A DNA stretch of 25,773 bases from a virus. A program made the translations under genes and the position numbers. The stretch lies in the IMG/VR virus record IMGVR_UViG_3300009152_000182, positions 1 to 25,773 of that record, one strand, 5' to 3'. This document shows, piece by piece, positions 107 through 17,148 of this stretch (position 1 is its first letter; each line of letters begins with the position of its first letter). Under the pieces are notes generated by a model. It made no database searches. It was not told the DNA's origin and saw nothing but the letters and a program-made list of their open reading frames with translations.

Positions 107-499
107 TTACGCAACCTCAATAATGGTAACATCAGATGCCTTGCGAGCTGCACGCATACGCTCAGCAGCGAGTCTCTCTGCAAGTTTCTCGATGCGCTTA
201 TTACGCCGCAGCTCCCGCTGGTCCTCGAGAACAATCTTGCGCAGCTGCGCTTCGCGACGCTTTTCTTCGATCGCATTTTTCTTCTCGGTACGCACCGCAT
301 CGCGCAGATTGCGAATAACCGATCGCTTGAATCTGATCTTGAATCTGATGTCCTGGCGAATTATCTTCGCGTTAGCGATAGCACGCACCAACTCCCGTTT
401 GTGCGCAACGATATTCTGCTGGGACTCCCTCAGCGCTGAGCGATACGCTTTGAGCTCAGAGACTGCATCTTCGAGTGCCGTTACATTTCCGCTAGTCAT
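107..499 (-). CDS. Small basic coiled-coil protein of unknown function
   Basis: Predicted 130-residue protein, almost wholly helical and very rich in Arg, Lys and Glu, with heptad-like spacing from about residue 10 to 115. No enzymatic motif is visible. The frame is open up to an ATG at 520, but the ATG at 499 (MTSGNV) is preferred because GAGGAGA lies about 5 nt before it, while the earlier ATG has no such site. A promoter of the box-containing class lies just upstream (527-585), and the next gene follows after one base. The charged, extended helix would suit a nucleic-acid-binding, scaffolding or inhibitor-type phage protein, but this is only inference. A long plus-strand frame over the same bases is a shadow. 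I do not recognise the family. Confidence 0.6.
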   Translation of the reverse strand: MTSGNVTALEDAVSELKAYRSALRESQQNIVAHKRELVRAIANAKIIRQDIRFKIRFKRSVIRNLRDAVRTEKKNAIEEKRREAQLRKIVLEDQRELRRNKRIEKLAERLAAERMRAARKASDVTIIEVA

Positions 500-526
500 A
501 CATCTCTCCTCATTCATCATAGTATC

Positions 527-633: not shown

Positions 634-643
634 ATACCAATTA

Positions 644-656
644 AATCAATAACTTA
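644..656 (-). promoter_or_regulatory. Extra copy of the 13-bp box without an obvious promoter
   Basis: TAAGTTATTGATT on the minus strand, identical to the copies at 14033-14045 and 16318-16330. The sequence 18 bp downstream reads CATTTA and no good -10 follows, so this copy is not paired with a recognisable sigma70 promoter. It lies between the hairpin at 661-687 and the AATGGGGTAATA repeats. Confidence 0.5.
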
Positions 657-12721: not shown

Positions 12722-13957
12722 TTAAAATGGGGGATCTTCTGACGTAGTATCTTTTACATCTGACGTAGTATCTTTTACATCTGACGTAGTATCTTTTACA
12801 TCTGACGTAGTATCTTTTACATCTACAGTTTCATCAACTGCTTTTTCATCAAGCTTAGTGTAAAAGTCCAGGAACGAAATTTTGGTTTCGGTGTCAAACC
12901 GATTCAAGCACAACTCAATCGCCTTCTTACGATTGTTGAAGATGCTGTAAGCTTTAGCAATATGAACCAGACGACGGGTCGAGATAACTTCGGAGACGAA
13001 ACCGTCCTGAAATCCCTTACGAACGATATCAGCCCAGAGTACAAGCTTCTTGATGAAGTCAGCATCAGTCAAACCGAGTTCAGCGAAATTCTTCACGAGA
13101 ATATTGCGCTCAACTGCCATCGACGGATACTCTTGTTCAACCGTAATCGCGAATCGCTCAAGGAATGCTTCGTTTAGCACGTTGGCGCCGATGAAACGAC
13201 CATCATCACTGCCTTTACCTTTCGTGTTAGCAGTTGCGATGATATTGAATCCTTCTGCGGGATGAATCACTTCACCAGTTTTCTTGTCGAAATACGGTTT
13301 GCCTTCCAGCACACCATTCAAACAAAGAAGATCTTCGGTGCCATAATCCGTCTCGTCAAGAAGCAGAACGGCACCACGACGCATTGCGGTAATCACAGGA
13401 CCCTCGCGGCGAACCGTATTACCGTCAATCAATTCATAAGAGCCGATAAGATCGGTCTCGTCGGTGCGCTTCGTGATATTGACGCGAATCAATTCGCGCT
13501 TGAGCGAAGCACAAACTTGCTCAACCATCAGCGTCTTACCGTTGCCCGACAAGCCGGTGATGTACATCGGATAGAATGCTTTGGATGCAATCACATTCTT
13601 AAGATCATTGAAGAAGCCGAACGGAACATAGGTGCTAAGTTTGTTCGGAACAAACGACTCAGTTGTATTCTGAGCACGTTTCGGAGTCAGATTGACTACG
13701 GTGGCAGCCATAGCCATCGGTGCAGTTTGCGCAGCAGCGACAGCTGGCTTAGGCGATGCAGTTACAGTAGGAACAATGCTGAAGGTATTCCGAGCAATCT
13801 TGCGTTCGCGTAGAATGAAATACGGGAACGAATCGATGCTGTTGTCGTCAACGTATTCGTTGAGCTGTTTCAGGGTGATGGTCTCGCAACCAAAATGCGC
13901 ATGGATCTTCTCGAGGAAGGCGACCTGCGCGGCGGAATCATAACTAGGCTTTCTCAT
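12722..13957 (-). CDS. cobS: CobS/MoxR-type AAA+ ATPase
   Basis: About 411 residues. The N-terminal 70 residues look like the CobS N-domain, followed by an Ala/Pro-rich linker. The AAA+ core has Walker A GLSGNGKT (near 135-142), Walker B AVLLLDETD, sensor 1 NIIATANT and a Ser/Gly-rich SDDGRF loop. CobS with CobT powers cobalt insertion in cobalamin synthesis, and T4-like marine phages often carry a cobS gene. Here it precedes no cobalamin gene other than the vWA partner, so a MoxR-like remodelling role is as likely. The tail holds four perfect DVKDTTS repeats. Start ATG at 13957 is favoured; a GTG at 13969 (4 residues longer) is possible. Confidence 0.85.
   Translation of the reverse strand: MRKPSYDSAAQVAFLEKIHAHFGCETITLKQLNEYVDDNSIDSFPYFILRERKIARNTFSIVPTVTASPKPAVAAAQTAPMAMAATVVNLTPKRAQNTTESFVPNKLSTYVPFGFFNDLKNVIASKAFYPMYITGLSGNGKTLMVEQVCASLKRELIRVNITKRTDETDLIGSYELIDGNTVRREGPVITAMRRGAVLLLDETDYGTEDLLCLNGVLEGKPYFDKKTGEVIHPAEGFNIIATANTKGKGSDDGRFIGANVLNEAFLERFAITVEQEYPSMAVERNILVKNFAELGLTDADFIKKLVLWADIVRKGFQDGFVSEVISTRRLVHIAKAYSIFNNRKKAIELCLNRFDTETKISFLDFYTKLDEKAVDETVDVKDTTSDVKDTTSDVKDTTSDVKDTTSEDPPF
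12739..12822. repeat. Four perfect 21-bp tandem repeats in the cobS 3' end
   Basis: Four identical units at 12739-12759, 12760-12780, 12781-12801 and 12802-12822. They encode four copies of DVKDTTS in the acidic C-terminal tail of the ATPase. Being in frame and free of differences, they suggest recent slippage expansion. Part of the unit (CTGACGTAGTATCTT on the plus strand) also occurs in the acidic linker of the vWA gene near 15502-15516. Confidence 0.95.
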
Positions 13958-13986
13958 ATCATCACTCACTTTATATTACAAAAAAG

Positions 13987-14045
13987 ATTATATATTAAAA
14001 CAAGGAAAAGTAAATAGAAATAACCATATATAAATCAATAACTTA
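13987..14045 (-). promoter_or_regulatory. Promoter of the cobS-like gene with upstream 13-bp box
   Basis: Minus strand TAAGTTATTGATT (14045-14033), 18 bp, TTTACT (14014-14009), 16 bp, TATAAT (13992-13987). The TAA of the box is also the stop codon of the vWA gene. The -35 region (TTTACTTTTCC) is identical to that of the vWA promoter, and the spacing from the box is the same. Confidence 0.8.
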
Positions 14046-16244
14046 CGCAGCAGCGATATCTGTAGCGAATTTACTGATAAGCATACGGTTCTTTGACTTA
14101 TTCACGAACGAATTCTTGAATGCCTTTCCGATACTGGCTTTCGTCATATTCTTATCAATTACCAAGTTTTCGTTGATTTTCTTAGTTTGGTTCTTTACGA
14201 AATAGTATGAATCGTAACCAATTTTTTCAACAATCACGAAATTGTTCTGATTGAACAGTTTCTTACACTTCACAAACTCTTCTTCAGAAGAAGTCATATA
14301 TCGACAAAAATTGTCAGTGATATAATACGCAATATGCTTACATCCAGTCAACTCTCGGATGAACTTAGTCAATTCAGTCTGAATTGTAAAATGGTGATTT
14401 TTTTGTATGTTTGCACTGTCAAGGATAAACTGTTTTTTGGTTTTCTTATCAGTCAAGACAAATCGAAAGGCAAATCGAGAGCTCTTGCCAGAATATGTTG
14501 ATGATCCGAGTTGCCCTGAAACAGAAAGGTATCTAATATTGTCTTTTTCTGCGTCAACATAATTCAATACATTATGATTGCCCTCGCCATCGGTGAGGTA
14601 TATCACATTGACAATATCAACTTTTTTATTGTTCTTGAAATTTTCAATAATGTTACGCGAAGCAAACAAAGTTTCGGTGAACGGAGTTTCATTCAGTTTG
14701 AAATTGAATCCAGGAACATGCGTCAATATCACTTGAATGTTATTACGCATAACATTAAACAATTCGCCCCAATTATTGTAAGCAACAATCGACATCATTT
14801 CCAGTGATTTTTTGAATTGTGCATTGGATGAAGAGGAACTCATCAACTGAACAAGACCGAAACCAGTAGACCTAATATCAAACTTATCAGATTCGAACTG
14901 TTTCTTTTTACAGGTATGAATACAATCGCTGAAGCCATAAAAGTCGAAAGGAATATTTGCTTTCTTACAAAAGATTCCAAGAATCATCAACTGCTCGATC
15001 ATCAAACTGAACGAATTCATCATGGATCCAGACATATCGAGGAACAGCACAAGACCGTGATTCTTGCCTTTCGGTACAATAGTCATCTTGCGGAAGATGT
15101 CATTGCTGTACTTGTACTTGTGCAATAGCGACGTATCAATATCGCCACTACGGCTGGTTTGGCGCCGAGCATACTGCGATGCATTTTTGCGCATCTCGAA
15201 TTCTTTCAGAAGCATCGAGATATAGTTCAAATTGTTCATGTTGAACTTATCCATGCATGTTTTTTTCATGCATGTAACATCAATACCAGATTCTTTTGCA
15301 TAAGCATAATATTTGTCGAACAACGCCAGCTGGTCATTATTAGACACAACGATATTCTCAAGAATAGCTTCAGGGAAGTCGCCGACATAAACTGTGCAAT
15401 TCTGCGCAAGAAGTTCATTCTCGCGGAAACGAAAGATCTTATCAGTTACAGACTGTGGCTCTTGGTCAAGATTTTCATCAGACATGTCACCAGTTGTTTC
15501 TGACGTAGTATCTTCTTCTGAATCAGCTGAGTCGTCTTGCTCGCCAATCTCTTTAGCTTGCGGTTCAGAATCAAATTCTGAATCGTACTCGACATCAGAT
15601 TCATCTTCGTCGCCTGACTCAGAATGAGTCTCGTCATAGAGAGCATCCATAAGATCTTTAGTGTTTGAGATCTTGTCTTGTTCTTCCTGTTTGATGTAAT
15701 CGCGCAAGATTTTGGCAATTCGAACGGTATCTTCCCAGGACTCAGCTGCTGCTACCTGTTCCACAATTTCACGTTCCTTCTCGTCGAAGGGAACGATCAA
15801 CAAACTACCAAGTTTGAAGTACAGGTTGATACGATCAGCGAGGTTGAGTTTAGACAGATTCTGCAGCTTTTCGACGCCGAAGAATCCACGATCATACAAT
15901 TCTTTGTAGCCGCGTGCAAACGGTCGAGAGAGACCTTGGTATCGTCGCTTCTGCCGTTTCTCGATACGCGCATCTTCGCAAATATTGAGAATGCTCTTGA
16001 ACCCAGGATTTTCGCTGAGTTCATTGTGCCAGCCATCAGCTGGCGTATCAATAGCGTGACCCGTTTCGTGACCATGGAGCAGATCGTACAAATCTGCACT
16101 CATCTCGCGCCATACAGGAAGTTGAATCGTGCGCGATTTCGGGTCAAACGATGCAGTCTGTGCACTAGAAGAATACACAATATTCAGATTCTCGCCAGCT
16201 AATAGGCGAGCCAGAGTACCTTTGGTGTCTTTGAGGTTATTCAT
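14043..16244 (-). CDS. Zincin-like metallopeptidase/vWA protein (CobT-like partner of the AAA+ ATPase)
   Basis: A 733-residue protein. Residues 57-63 hold HGHETGH, an HExxH zinc motif (His59, Glu60, His63), and EDARIE at 90-95 fits a third ligand. An acidic low-complexity linker spans about 205-262. A vWA domain begins near 397 with the MIDAS motif DMSGS (403-407) and continues with a Thr-bearing loop and YLTDGEGNH (549-557). The layout (N-domain, acidic linker, vWA) is that of CobT, the partner of CobS, but the intact HExxH suggests proteolysis rather than a chelatase role. AAGGG lies about 8 nt before the ATG. It has its own box promoter, and the partner ATPase follows behind a second one. 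Cofactor and substrate are unknown. Confidence 0.85.
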   Translation of the reverse strand: MNNLKDTKGTLARLLAGENLNIVYSSSAQTASFDPKSRTIQLPVWREMSADLYDLLHGHETGHAIDTPADGWHNELSENPGFKSILNICEDARIEKRQKRRYQGLSRPFARGYKELYDRGFFGVEKLQNLSKLNLADRINLYFKLGSLLIVPFDEKEREIVEQVAAAESWEDTVRIAKILRDYIKQEEQDKISNTKDLMDALYDETHSESGDEDESDVEYDSEFDSEPQAKEIGEQDDSADSEEDTTSETTGDMSDENLDQEPQSVTDKIFRFRENELLAQNCTVYVGDFPEAILENIVVSNNDQLALFDKYYAYAKESGIDVTCMKKTCMDKFNMNNLNYISMLLKEFEMRKNASQYARRQTSRSGDIDTSLLHKYKYSNDIFRKMTIVPKGKNHGLVLFLDMSGSMMNSFSLMIEQLMILGIFCKKANIPFDFYGFSDCIHTCKKKQFESDKFDIRSTGFGLVQLMSSSSSNAQFKKSLEMMSIVAYNNWGELFNVMRNNIQVILTHVPGFNFKLNETPFTETLFASRNIIENFKNNKKVDIVNVIYLTDGEGNHNVLNYVDAEKDNIRYLSVSGQLGSSTYSGKSSRFAFRFVLTDKKTKKQFILDSANIQKNHHFTIQTELTKFIRELTGCKHIAYYITDNFCRYMTSSEEEFVKCKKLFNQNNFVIVEKIGYDSYYFVKNQTKKINENLVIDKNMTKASIGKAFKNSFVNKSKNRMLISKFATDIAAA

Positions 16245-16270: not shown

Positions 16271-16330
16271 ATTCTATATTGGAAACGCGGAAAAGTAAAC
16301 CAAAAAAACTCTAATAAAATCAATAACTTA
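16271..16330 (-). promoter_or_regulatory. Promoter of the vWA gene with upstream 13-bp box
   Basis: Minus strand TAAGTTATTGATT (16330-16318), 18 bp, TTTACT (16299-16294), 17 bp, TAGAAT (16276-16271). The TAA of the box is the stop codon of the upstream 82-codon gene. Same architecture as at 13987-14045. Confidence 0.78.
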
Positions 16331-16576
16331 GCCAACCCTGAAAAAAGCCGACCTTTTTTTCAGTTTTTCGACGTATCCAACCTTCTGTAACATCCTGGCA
16401 CGCAGTTCAGCAAAGTAACAAGATGTATGAGTACTGTCTGTGTACCAAATATATTGGCACATGAATCCTGTTTTCTTTTTGTATTGAACGTGCCACTTGT
16501 TATCTGTACCTGCTATTCGTACAAGAACAATAGGTTCTTTCTCAACCTCAAATCCGAAATGTTCTATTTTACTCAT
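16328..16576 (-). CDS. Small protein of unknown function
   Basis: An 82-residue soluble, basic protein with several aromatic residues in a probable beta-rich half (VRIAGTDNKWHVQYKKKTG, then CQYIWYTD) followed by a C-terminal helix (FAELRARMLQKVGYVEKL). I do not recognise it. The start overlaps the peptide deformylase stop by 4 nt (ATGA), so it is the last gene of the uvsY-to-def run. Its stop codon is part of the 13-bp box of the next promoter, a tight fusion of gene end and regulatory element. Confidence 0.65.
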   Translation of the reverse strand: MSKIEHFGFEVEKEPIVLVRIAGTDNKWHVQYKKKTGFMCQYIWYTDSTHTSCYFAELRARMLQKVGYVEKLKKRSAFFRVG

Positions 16577-17148
16577 TTTAGTAATGCCTCATTACCGACT
16601 CGAGCCATTTTTTTCAGATTTCCTTTTATCTTACGTTTTGCTCTCATAAGATGAAATGGATGCACTAGATCAGTATATAGTATTCCATCAAGATGATCAA
16701 GTTCATGCTGAACGCAAGTTGCTGTCAATCCATCAAATGTTTGTGTTATTTCTTCACCATCAATTGAATTGAACTTTAGTGTTACAGTTTGCGATCTTGA
16801 TAGCTTCAGGAATAATCCTGGATACGACAAACATCCCTCTTGATAAGAAGATTTCAAAACACTCTTATCAACAACAACAGGATTAATAATACACCAAATT
16901 TTATCTCCCATATTGAGTGCGAACATTCTATTTGAAAGACCAACTTGATTGGCTGATAAACCTAAACCATTCATCTCACTCAAAGTTTCCATTAGAGAAA
17001 GAGCTAGAAATTCTATTTCTCTTGGACTAATATTATTAAAATCGATTGGTATTGTTGGCTTTTTTAATATTGGATCGTGAACGTCAACAAGTTTAAGTAA
17101 CTCGTATTCATACATCGAACCATTCATATATTTAAGTTTTCTACTCAT
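16573..17148 (-). CDS. def: Peptide deformylase
   Basis: A 191-residue peptide deformylase that removes the N-formyl group from nascent proteins. The three family motifs are intact: GLGLSANQVG (61-70), EGCLSYP (104-110, metal ligand Cys106) and HELDH (148-152, metal ligands His148/His152 and catalytic Glu149). Unlike many short phage deformylases it keeps a C-terminal extension of about 40 residues, rich in Lys and Arg. The start at 17148 overlaps the gp46 stop by 4 nt, with GAGG about 8 nt upstream. Phage deformylases are known from T4-like cyanophages and other aquatic myoviruses, where they are thought to support processing of short-lived proteins. Confidence 0.95.
   Translation of the reverse strand: MSRKLKYMNGSMYEYELLKLVDVHDPILKKPTIPIDFNNISPREIEFLALSLMETLSEMNGLGLSANQVGLSNRMFALNMGDKIWCIINPVVVDKSVLKSSYQEGCLSYPGLFLKLSRSQTVTLKFNSIDGEEITQTFDGLTATCVQHELDHLDGILYTDLVHPFHLMRAKRKIKGNLKKMARVGNEALLK

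Follow-up and report, generated by a model that had tools for sequence, protein, structure and literature searches.

A CobS-like AAA+ ATPase and its zincin-vWA partner in T4-like phages: a probable protein-remodelling module that shares ancestry with CobST

Introduction

Two adjacent genes on a 25.8-kb virus record, IMGVR_UViG_3300009152_000182 (positions 1 to 25,773; a phage fragment, the whole of which is called the window hereafter), raise the question of whether a gene pair carrying the labels 'peptidase' and cobS serves cobalamin synthesis or acts on proteins. By its gene content the window belongs to a T4-like myovirus of marine type; the first gene codes for a protein with a predicted N-terminal zincin domain and a C-terminal vWA domain (the zincin-vWA protein), the second for a CobS-like AAA+ ATPase, and both open reading frames lie at the coordinates given by a first, sequence-only reading of the window (Table 1).

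The cobS gene is listed as a cyanophage core gene (Sullivan 2010, PMC3037559) and has long been regarded as an 'auxiliary metabolic gene' of the cyanophage core that serves vitamin B12 (PMC3037559, PMC2984593); the pair has been read as two aerobic cobaltochelatase subunits, CobS and CobT, hijacking the host CobN to obtain more cobalamin (Liu et al. 2021, PMC8651126; also PMC9503304, PMC12043954), and the text tying the 'peptidase' gene to cobT calls that label a mistake (Liu 2021, PMC8651126). A MoxR AAA+ ATPase accompanied by a protein with an N-terminal metallopeptidase and a vWA domain has been described in group 2.2 T4-like jumbo phages and proposed for virion assembly and processing (Iyer 2021, PMC7824862); the idea of an AAA+/metallopeptidase-vWA pair is thus not new in kind, having been published for another family (PMC7824862). 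The family assignment of the cyanophage pair is contested, and the comparison of active sites between phage proteins and cellular CobT, which is new here, favours the peptidase side. In our view the pair is rather likely to be an AAA+/vWA protein-remodelling module equipped with its own metallopeptidase, and it is probably not a cobalt chelatase.

An intact zincin site in the phage proteins

The sequence-only reading had pointed to an HExxH motif at residues 59-63 of the zincin-vWA protein and to EDARIE at residues 90-95, and both are present, the former as H59-E-T-G-H63. Residues H59, E60, H63, T67, N87, E90, D91 and R93, together with D403, S405 and S407 of the MIDAS, are invariant in 92/92 distinct homologues whose mean pairwise identity is 37%; in an 83-sequence alignment of the N-domain, where identity falls as low as 13%, only P43, H59, E60, H63, E90, D91 and G104 stay without variation. 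A second, very distant phage group, several of whose proteins are annotated CobT and which is composed of SSU5-like phages of Klebsiella, Salmonella and E. coli and of Rhizobium and Pseudomonas phages, together with Vibrio JSF23, keeps HExxH and the equivalent of D91 in all of the 46 members having the N-terminus, and H59, E60, H63 and D91 are unchanged in 138/138 diverse phage homologues. Because the motif is invariant across homologues so diverse, its presence goes far beyond chance; coincidence, considered as an explanation of the HExxH, was rejected on this ground. The protein thus shows the signature of a zincin metallopeptidase, namely a conserved HExxH and a conserved acidic candidate for the third ligand.

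Cellular CobT, taken from alphaproteobacterial genomes by means of PF06213, looks different. HExxH is absent in all 24 extracted CobT-locus proteins, and in the joint alignment, from which two poorly extracted proteins were left out (n=22), the position of E60 is occupied by D in 19/22 and that of D91 by D in 1/22 only, H59 and E90 being kept. With HETGH and D91, the zincin-vWA protein does not conform to the cellular type of CobT N-domain, which has neither HExxH nor the third-ligand D; the comparison with CobT that the sequence-only reading had suggested therefore opposes an intact zincin site in the phage proteins to a cellular site that has mostly lost E60 and D91.

That reading had also sought the third zinc ligand in EDARIE; motif and region stand, with D91 now preferred and E90 put second. 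Judged from the alignments, D91 is the more likely ligand because none of the aligned mobile-element sequences lacks it, not even that of Vibrio JSF23, in which V stands in the place of E90, because DUF2201 shows the pattern NxxxD, and because CobT, in which catalysis is lost, keeps E90 and loses D91.

Predicted structure

The N-domain is predicted to adopt a zincin-like fold: its model is composed of a helix, a three-stranded sheet, a helix spanning residues 50-66 that carries HExxH, and the ligand helix (NxxED, residues 83-101), the full-length model having a mean predicted local distance difference test score (pLDDT) of 76. The top PDB matches of the N-domain in Foldseek are jannalysin, ArdC and selecase (best E 0.04), and the VIA list is headed by ArdC (Z 6.6, the best), BlaR1, abylysin, selecase, IrrE and SPRTN, and also includes Wss1; the strongest PDB matches are zinc metallopeptidases, each of them modest, with Z of 6.6 at most, and the upper ranks agree with one another. 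No significant similarity was found between the N-domain and the sequences of solved proteins.

For the vWA domain, the top matches are vWA domains that partner AAA+ proteins, that is, NorD with NorQ (Z 15.6) and the MIDAS of Rea1/MDN1 (Z 14.6). Among viral predicted structures, further matches are vWA proteins of the haloarchaeal viruses HCTV-2, HVTV-1 and HHTV-2 and 'CobT-like' proteins of Gordonia phages. CobT itself was not among the matches of the fold searches, though the PDB has CobT chains (9uka, 21vu), and it is not thereby excluded; entry 21vu places a 206-residue N-terminal piece of CobT beside a C-terminal piece of CobS, an arrangement suggesting, by analogy, that the N-domain could dock on the lid of the AAA+ protein.

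Relationship to CobS and CobT

The zincin-vWA protein reached the cut-off of no Pfam, NCBIfam or PADLOC family, and matched neither the CobT families (the TIGR01651 equivalog, PF06213 and PF11775) nor, at E up to 1, PF13203 (DUF2201); a single-sequence scan of viral contigs with the protein gave nothing, and a profile did find homologues. In hhalign the comparison with CobT over the whole length is weak (probability 2.6%) and the N-domain alone gives a p of 2e-4; bridging sequences were therefore used. An unconstrained profile alignment placed the phage GHA-x-x-TP..EDARIE on the CobT H-x-x-x-x-P..EQARVE, and a Klebsiella phage protein bridges the groups, matching PF06213 (E 2.6e-23), PF11775 (E 5e-100) and, over the zincin region, PHROG_459 (E 7.7e-5). 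The active-site comparison, the profile alignment and this bridge together argue that the phage protein is homologous to CobT and that CobT is the degenerate one. The sequence-only reading had called the pair a CobS/CobT look-alike built on the MoxR/vWA plan: the plan holds, and 'look-alike' has to give way, since the pair shares ancestry with CobST and is a real homologue.

The AAA+ protein matches PHROG_249 'porphyrin biosynthesis', which is the cyanophage cobS, with E 1e-109, and no variation is seen in its Walker A, Walker B, sensor and arginine residues. Among single-ring proteins of solved structure, CobS comes nearest to it in sequence (E 3e-36), followed by CbbQ and NorQ; on TIGR01650, the CobS equivalog, it scores 84.9 bits against a cut-off of 558.55. 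In a tree, for which the tool warned of long branches, cellular CobS is monophyletic and separate from the T4-like AAA+ proteins, each group being supported at 100/99. Roseobacter phage CRP-810 (L182) has the pair in the cellular order cobS-cobT with HExxH intact, and its AAA+ protein groups beside cellular CobS (99/93, long branch); it is a possible intermediate. The comparison with the DUF2201 and MoxR-vWA families, also suggested by the sequence-only reading, gives no PF13203 match and a pair of the MoxR-vWA type, in which an AAA_5 ATPase with intact motifs adjoins a vWA protein with an intact MIDAS.

A search for CobN (PF02514) gave no hit in 8 complete related phage genomes and 6 long related contigs; among the controls of this search 5 of 14 genomes were positive, and Synechococcus elongatus has a CobN-family gene. 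In the window no cobalamin genes were identified, the cobS label itself excepted, which bears out the earlier remark that none is nearby.

Pairing and distribution

By tblastn, 463 phage records contain the vWA gene and 754 contain the AAA+ gene, with equal counts for the two in records named Synechococcus (365/365), Cyanophage (61/61) and Prochlorococcus (24/24). In 72/82 testable loci the vWA gene is followed at no more than 2.5 kb by an AAA+ gene on its own strand, and in 54/82 at no more than 300 bp. The order gp46 - peptidase - cobS, with a few inserted genes, occurs in S-SM1, P-HM1, Sf-CH11, S-SSM7, S-SRM01, P-TIM68 and Ochrobactrum phage OC, gp45 adjoining peptidase-cobS wherever the annotation reached that far, and Pelagibacter phage Mosig has the same pair ahead of the sliding clamp. 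At ten loci (L029, L032, L033, L035, L037, L042, L048, L053, L054 and L072) no AAA+ gene stands next to the zincin-vWA gene, cobS being elsewhere on the same contig in L072; for the 'cobS' of Staphylococcus phage K, no vWA partner is annotated at a distance of up to 5 kb. T4-like copies of the gene on bacterial or archaeal genome contigs (L090-L095; Nonlabens, a Woesearchaeota metagenome-assembled genome, Prochlorococcus and others) are probably phage contigs or contamination in the assemblies.

Outside phages, the module is present near recombination genes of IncC plasmids and of an SXT/R391-type element, an observation that is new here; the literature search on CobS/CobT of IncC/SXT returned no title or abstract concerning this module. 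In these elements (L184-L187) an intact zincin-vWA protein, with HEAAH and EDCRIE or EDVRIE, is accompanied by a CobS-like AAA+ protein; the two genes flank or adjoin ssb, bet and an exonuclease gene, with radC and a primase gene following in the case of the SXT-type element. A gene similar to that of the AAA+ protein is present in 4117 plasmid records. Across the various elements the neighbours of the pair are gp46/47 and gp45/44/62, Pol III alpha, a helicase with Pol I, or bet/exo/ssb and radC.

Proposed mechanism and alternatives

In the mechanism considered here, the CobS-like protein would assemble into an ATPase ring, the vWA/MIDAS part would grip a client protein and couple it to the ring, and ATP hydrolysis would pull or remodel the client, which the N-terminal zincin domain would cut, with Zn held by H59, H63 and probably D91 and with E60 as the general base; cellular CobT would be a version without the catalytic residues, turned into a chelatase adaptor. 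We infer zinc binding, cleavage and docking on the ring, as well as a client that would most likely belong to the element's own DNA replication or recombination, or be a DNA-bound protein. The location of the pair among replication/recombination and clamp genes is suggestive of such a client in DNA metabolism; the zincins SPRTN, Wss1, IrrE and ArdC, which are among the closest fold matches, are DNA-linked. Of the earlier proposal, an AAA+ unfoldase driving a vWA metallopeptidase against host or phage proteins in place of a chelatase, the CobS/CobT and MoxR-vWA plan, the intact and invariant zincin site, the predicted zincin-like fold, the missing CobN and the shared promoters speak for the core, and nothing points specifically to host proteins.

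Some observations weigh against this interpretation: the direct profile link between the N-domain and CobT is weak (hhalign probability 47%, p 1.9e-4) and rests partly on the bridging sequences, no single zincin fold match is more than modest (best Foldseek E 0.04, Z <8), and the gene neighbourhood bears on the client only indirectly. A wider version, tentative and rather unlikely as a whole, would make the pair an ATP-driven, DNA-associated metalloprotease of mobile elements, a functional analogue of p97 with SPRTN/Wss1 that would cut or strip proteins trapped on DNA during replication or recombination and be common to T4-like, SSU5-like, Rhizobium and Vibrio ICP2-like phages, IncC plasmids and SXT/R391 elements, cellular CobT being a catalytically dead descendant or sister.

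For the DUF2201-type pair of group 2.2 jumbo phages, Iyer et al. (2021, PMC7824862) proposed a chaperone of virion assembly with an added role in the processing of structural proteins. Such a function appears unlikely here: the AAA+ plus metallopeptidase-vWA plan is the same and there is a peptidase-less precedent in p618/p892 of Acidianus two-tailed virus (PMC7824862, PMC7911831), but the pair is found across phages among replication/recombination and clamp genes, outside the virion module, and the module is also carried by a conjugative plasmid and an SXT-type element, which build no virion. Less credible still is a chaperone of the MoxR type with a zincin domain that would bind metal or a peptide and not cleave; cellular CobT is an example of this domain at work in the absence of catalytic residues, and the DUF2201 protein of Atu_ph07 has HQILH, but a purely structural use would not require E60, which is invariant in the 138 phage proteins and present in both of the plasmid and integrative-element proteins read. 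The cobaltochelatase is very improbable: although the homology is real (AAA+ protein against solved CobS, E 3e-36), bridging phage proteins pass the CobT Pfam cut-offs and Synechococcus elongatus carries a CobN-family gene, the zincin site is intact in all mobile-element versions and lost in cellular CobT, no CobN was found in the 8 related phage genomes, the equivalog cut-offs are missed by far, and the same module is carried by phages and plasmids whose hosts, E. coli, Klebsiella and Salmonella, to our knowledge are without CobN and do not use CobNST.

If the pair is indeed an AAA+-driven protease, the inferences on B12 that rest on several hundred phage genomes and on ocean metagenomes need revision, the widespread cobS/B12 label on the phage pair would be corrected, and a core function of very abundant marine viruses, found also in IncC plasmids, could be tested by a single point mutation (E60).

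Gene setting and promoters

The gene order in the window is head scaffold, major head protein, UvsW-type helicase, late sigma factor, gp47/gp46, peptide deformylase, the zincin-vWA/AAA+ pair, sliding clamp, clamp loader and RegA. The peptide deformylase gene (16573-17148, minus strand) directly precedes the pair region, likewise in Ochrobactrum phage OC, and in Pelagibacter phage Mosig it is also close to the pair.

Table 1. Features of the gene pair in the window
Feature	Position	Strand	Evidence
Zincin-vWA protein, 733 aa, ATG start; PHROG_459 'peptidase', T4-GC 146	14043..16244	-	PHROG_459 match E 5e-153, full length
N-terminal zincin domain, residues 1-201	15642..16244	-	predicted alone, pLDDT 92.8, pTM 0.88
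HETGH, residues 59-63: two predicted zinc-ligand His and catalytic Glu60	16056..16070	-	sequence, conservation
N87-ICEDARI-E95 helix; D91 probable third ligand, E90/R93 conserved neighbours	15960..15986	-	conservation
Acidic low-complexity linker, residues about 205-262	15459..15632	-	pLDDT <50 over most of linker
vWA domain, residues 391-733; nearest solved folds NorD vWA (NorQ partner), Rea1/MDN1 MIDAS	14046..15074	-	fold search
MIDAS D403-M-S405-G-S407	15024..15038	-	conservation
MIDAS T520	14685-14687	-	
MIDAS D552	14589-14591	-	
CobS-like AAA+ ATPase, 415 aa from GTG; in-frame ATG at 13957; PHROG_249, T4-GC 150	12722..13969	-	
Walker A GLSGNGKT, residues 139-146	13532..13555	-	
Perfect repeats of 21 nt that encode the (VKDTTSD)n tail at the C-terminus of the AAA+ protein; contain TCTGACGTAGTATCTT	12738..12821	-	
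Promoter element before vWA gene: AAGTTATTGATTT box, TTTACTTTTCC, -10-like TAGAAT	16271..16330	-	
Promoter element before AAA+ gene: AAGTTATTGATTT box, TTTACTTTTCC, -10-like TATAAT	13987..14045	-	

Each gene is preceded by a 48-nt element (13998-14045 and 16283-16330, 77% identical) that contains the AAGTTATTGATTT box and a -35/-10-like TTTACT-16/17-TATAAT or TAGAAT; a AAGTTATTGATT box stands upstream of both genes in the nearest relatives (L010-L012), and the extended promoter pattern has just two occurrences in one 83-kb related contig. The view that each gene has its own promoter of the same box class is thereby strengthened, and co-regulation of the pair is supported by these sequence elements. 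At 640-655 (minus strand), about 120 nt ahead of the open reading frame 107-520 (minus strand), there is a further AAGTTATTGATTT box, the third, which lacks the TTTACTTTTCC part. The TCTGACGTAGTATCTT string of the AAA+ tail repeats has one more copy at 15499-15517, in the part of the vWA gene that codes for the acidic linker.

Comparison with known systems

The closest counterparts of the window pair are PHROG_459 and PHROG_249 of T4-like cyanophages and pelagiphages, which match over the full length and occur in the same order and in the same slot between gp46 and gp45; the window pair is divergent from the isolates, with about 30% (vWA) and 50% (AAA+) identity, and has its own promoter box class. 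With CobS/CobT of the aerobic cobaltochelatase it shares a homologous AAA+ protein, the plan of N-domain plus vWA, the acidic linker and the adjacency of the genes, whereas cellular CobT is without HExxH and D91, the phage pair misses the equivalog thresholds and has no CobN in the related genomes searched, and the gene order is T-S in most phages and S-T in cellular CobS/CobT.

The MoxR and metallopeptidase-vWA pair of group 2.2 jumbo phages (Atu_ph07 ASV44728/9) resembles the window pair in architecture and in the proposed coupling; the vWA protein of Atu_ph07, however, belongs to PF13203/DUF2201 (PHROG_1314) and has the motif HQILH, and the window protein has no PF13203 match. As a side observation, PHROG_1314 carries the label 'HNH endonuclease', and in L181:2254-3543 it matches a DUF2201 metallopeptidase-vWA protein (PF13203 E 8e-37), which makes the label a probable misannotation.

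NorQ/NorD, CbbQ/CbbO and Rea1/Midasin have in common with the pair an AAA+ ring and a MIDAS vWA partner, and provide the best vWA fold matches; the NorD and Rea1 matches cover the vWA part only, and we know of no N-terminal zincin domain in partners of the NorD, CbbO or Rea1 type. The zincins ArdC, IrrE/PprI, SPRTN/Wss1 and the minigluzincins show modest matches to the predicted fold of the N-domain with its HExxH helix; in contrast to them, the predicted zincin domain of the window is fused to a vWA domain and paired with an AAA+ ATPase.

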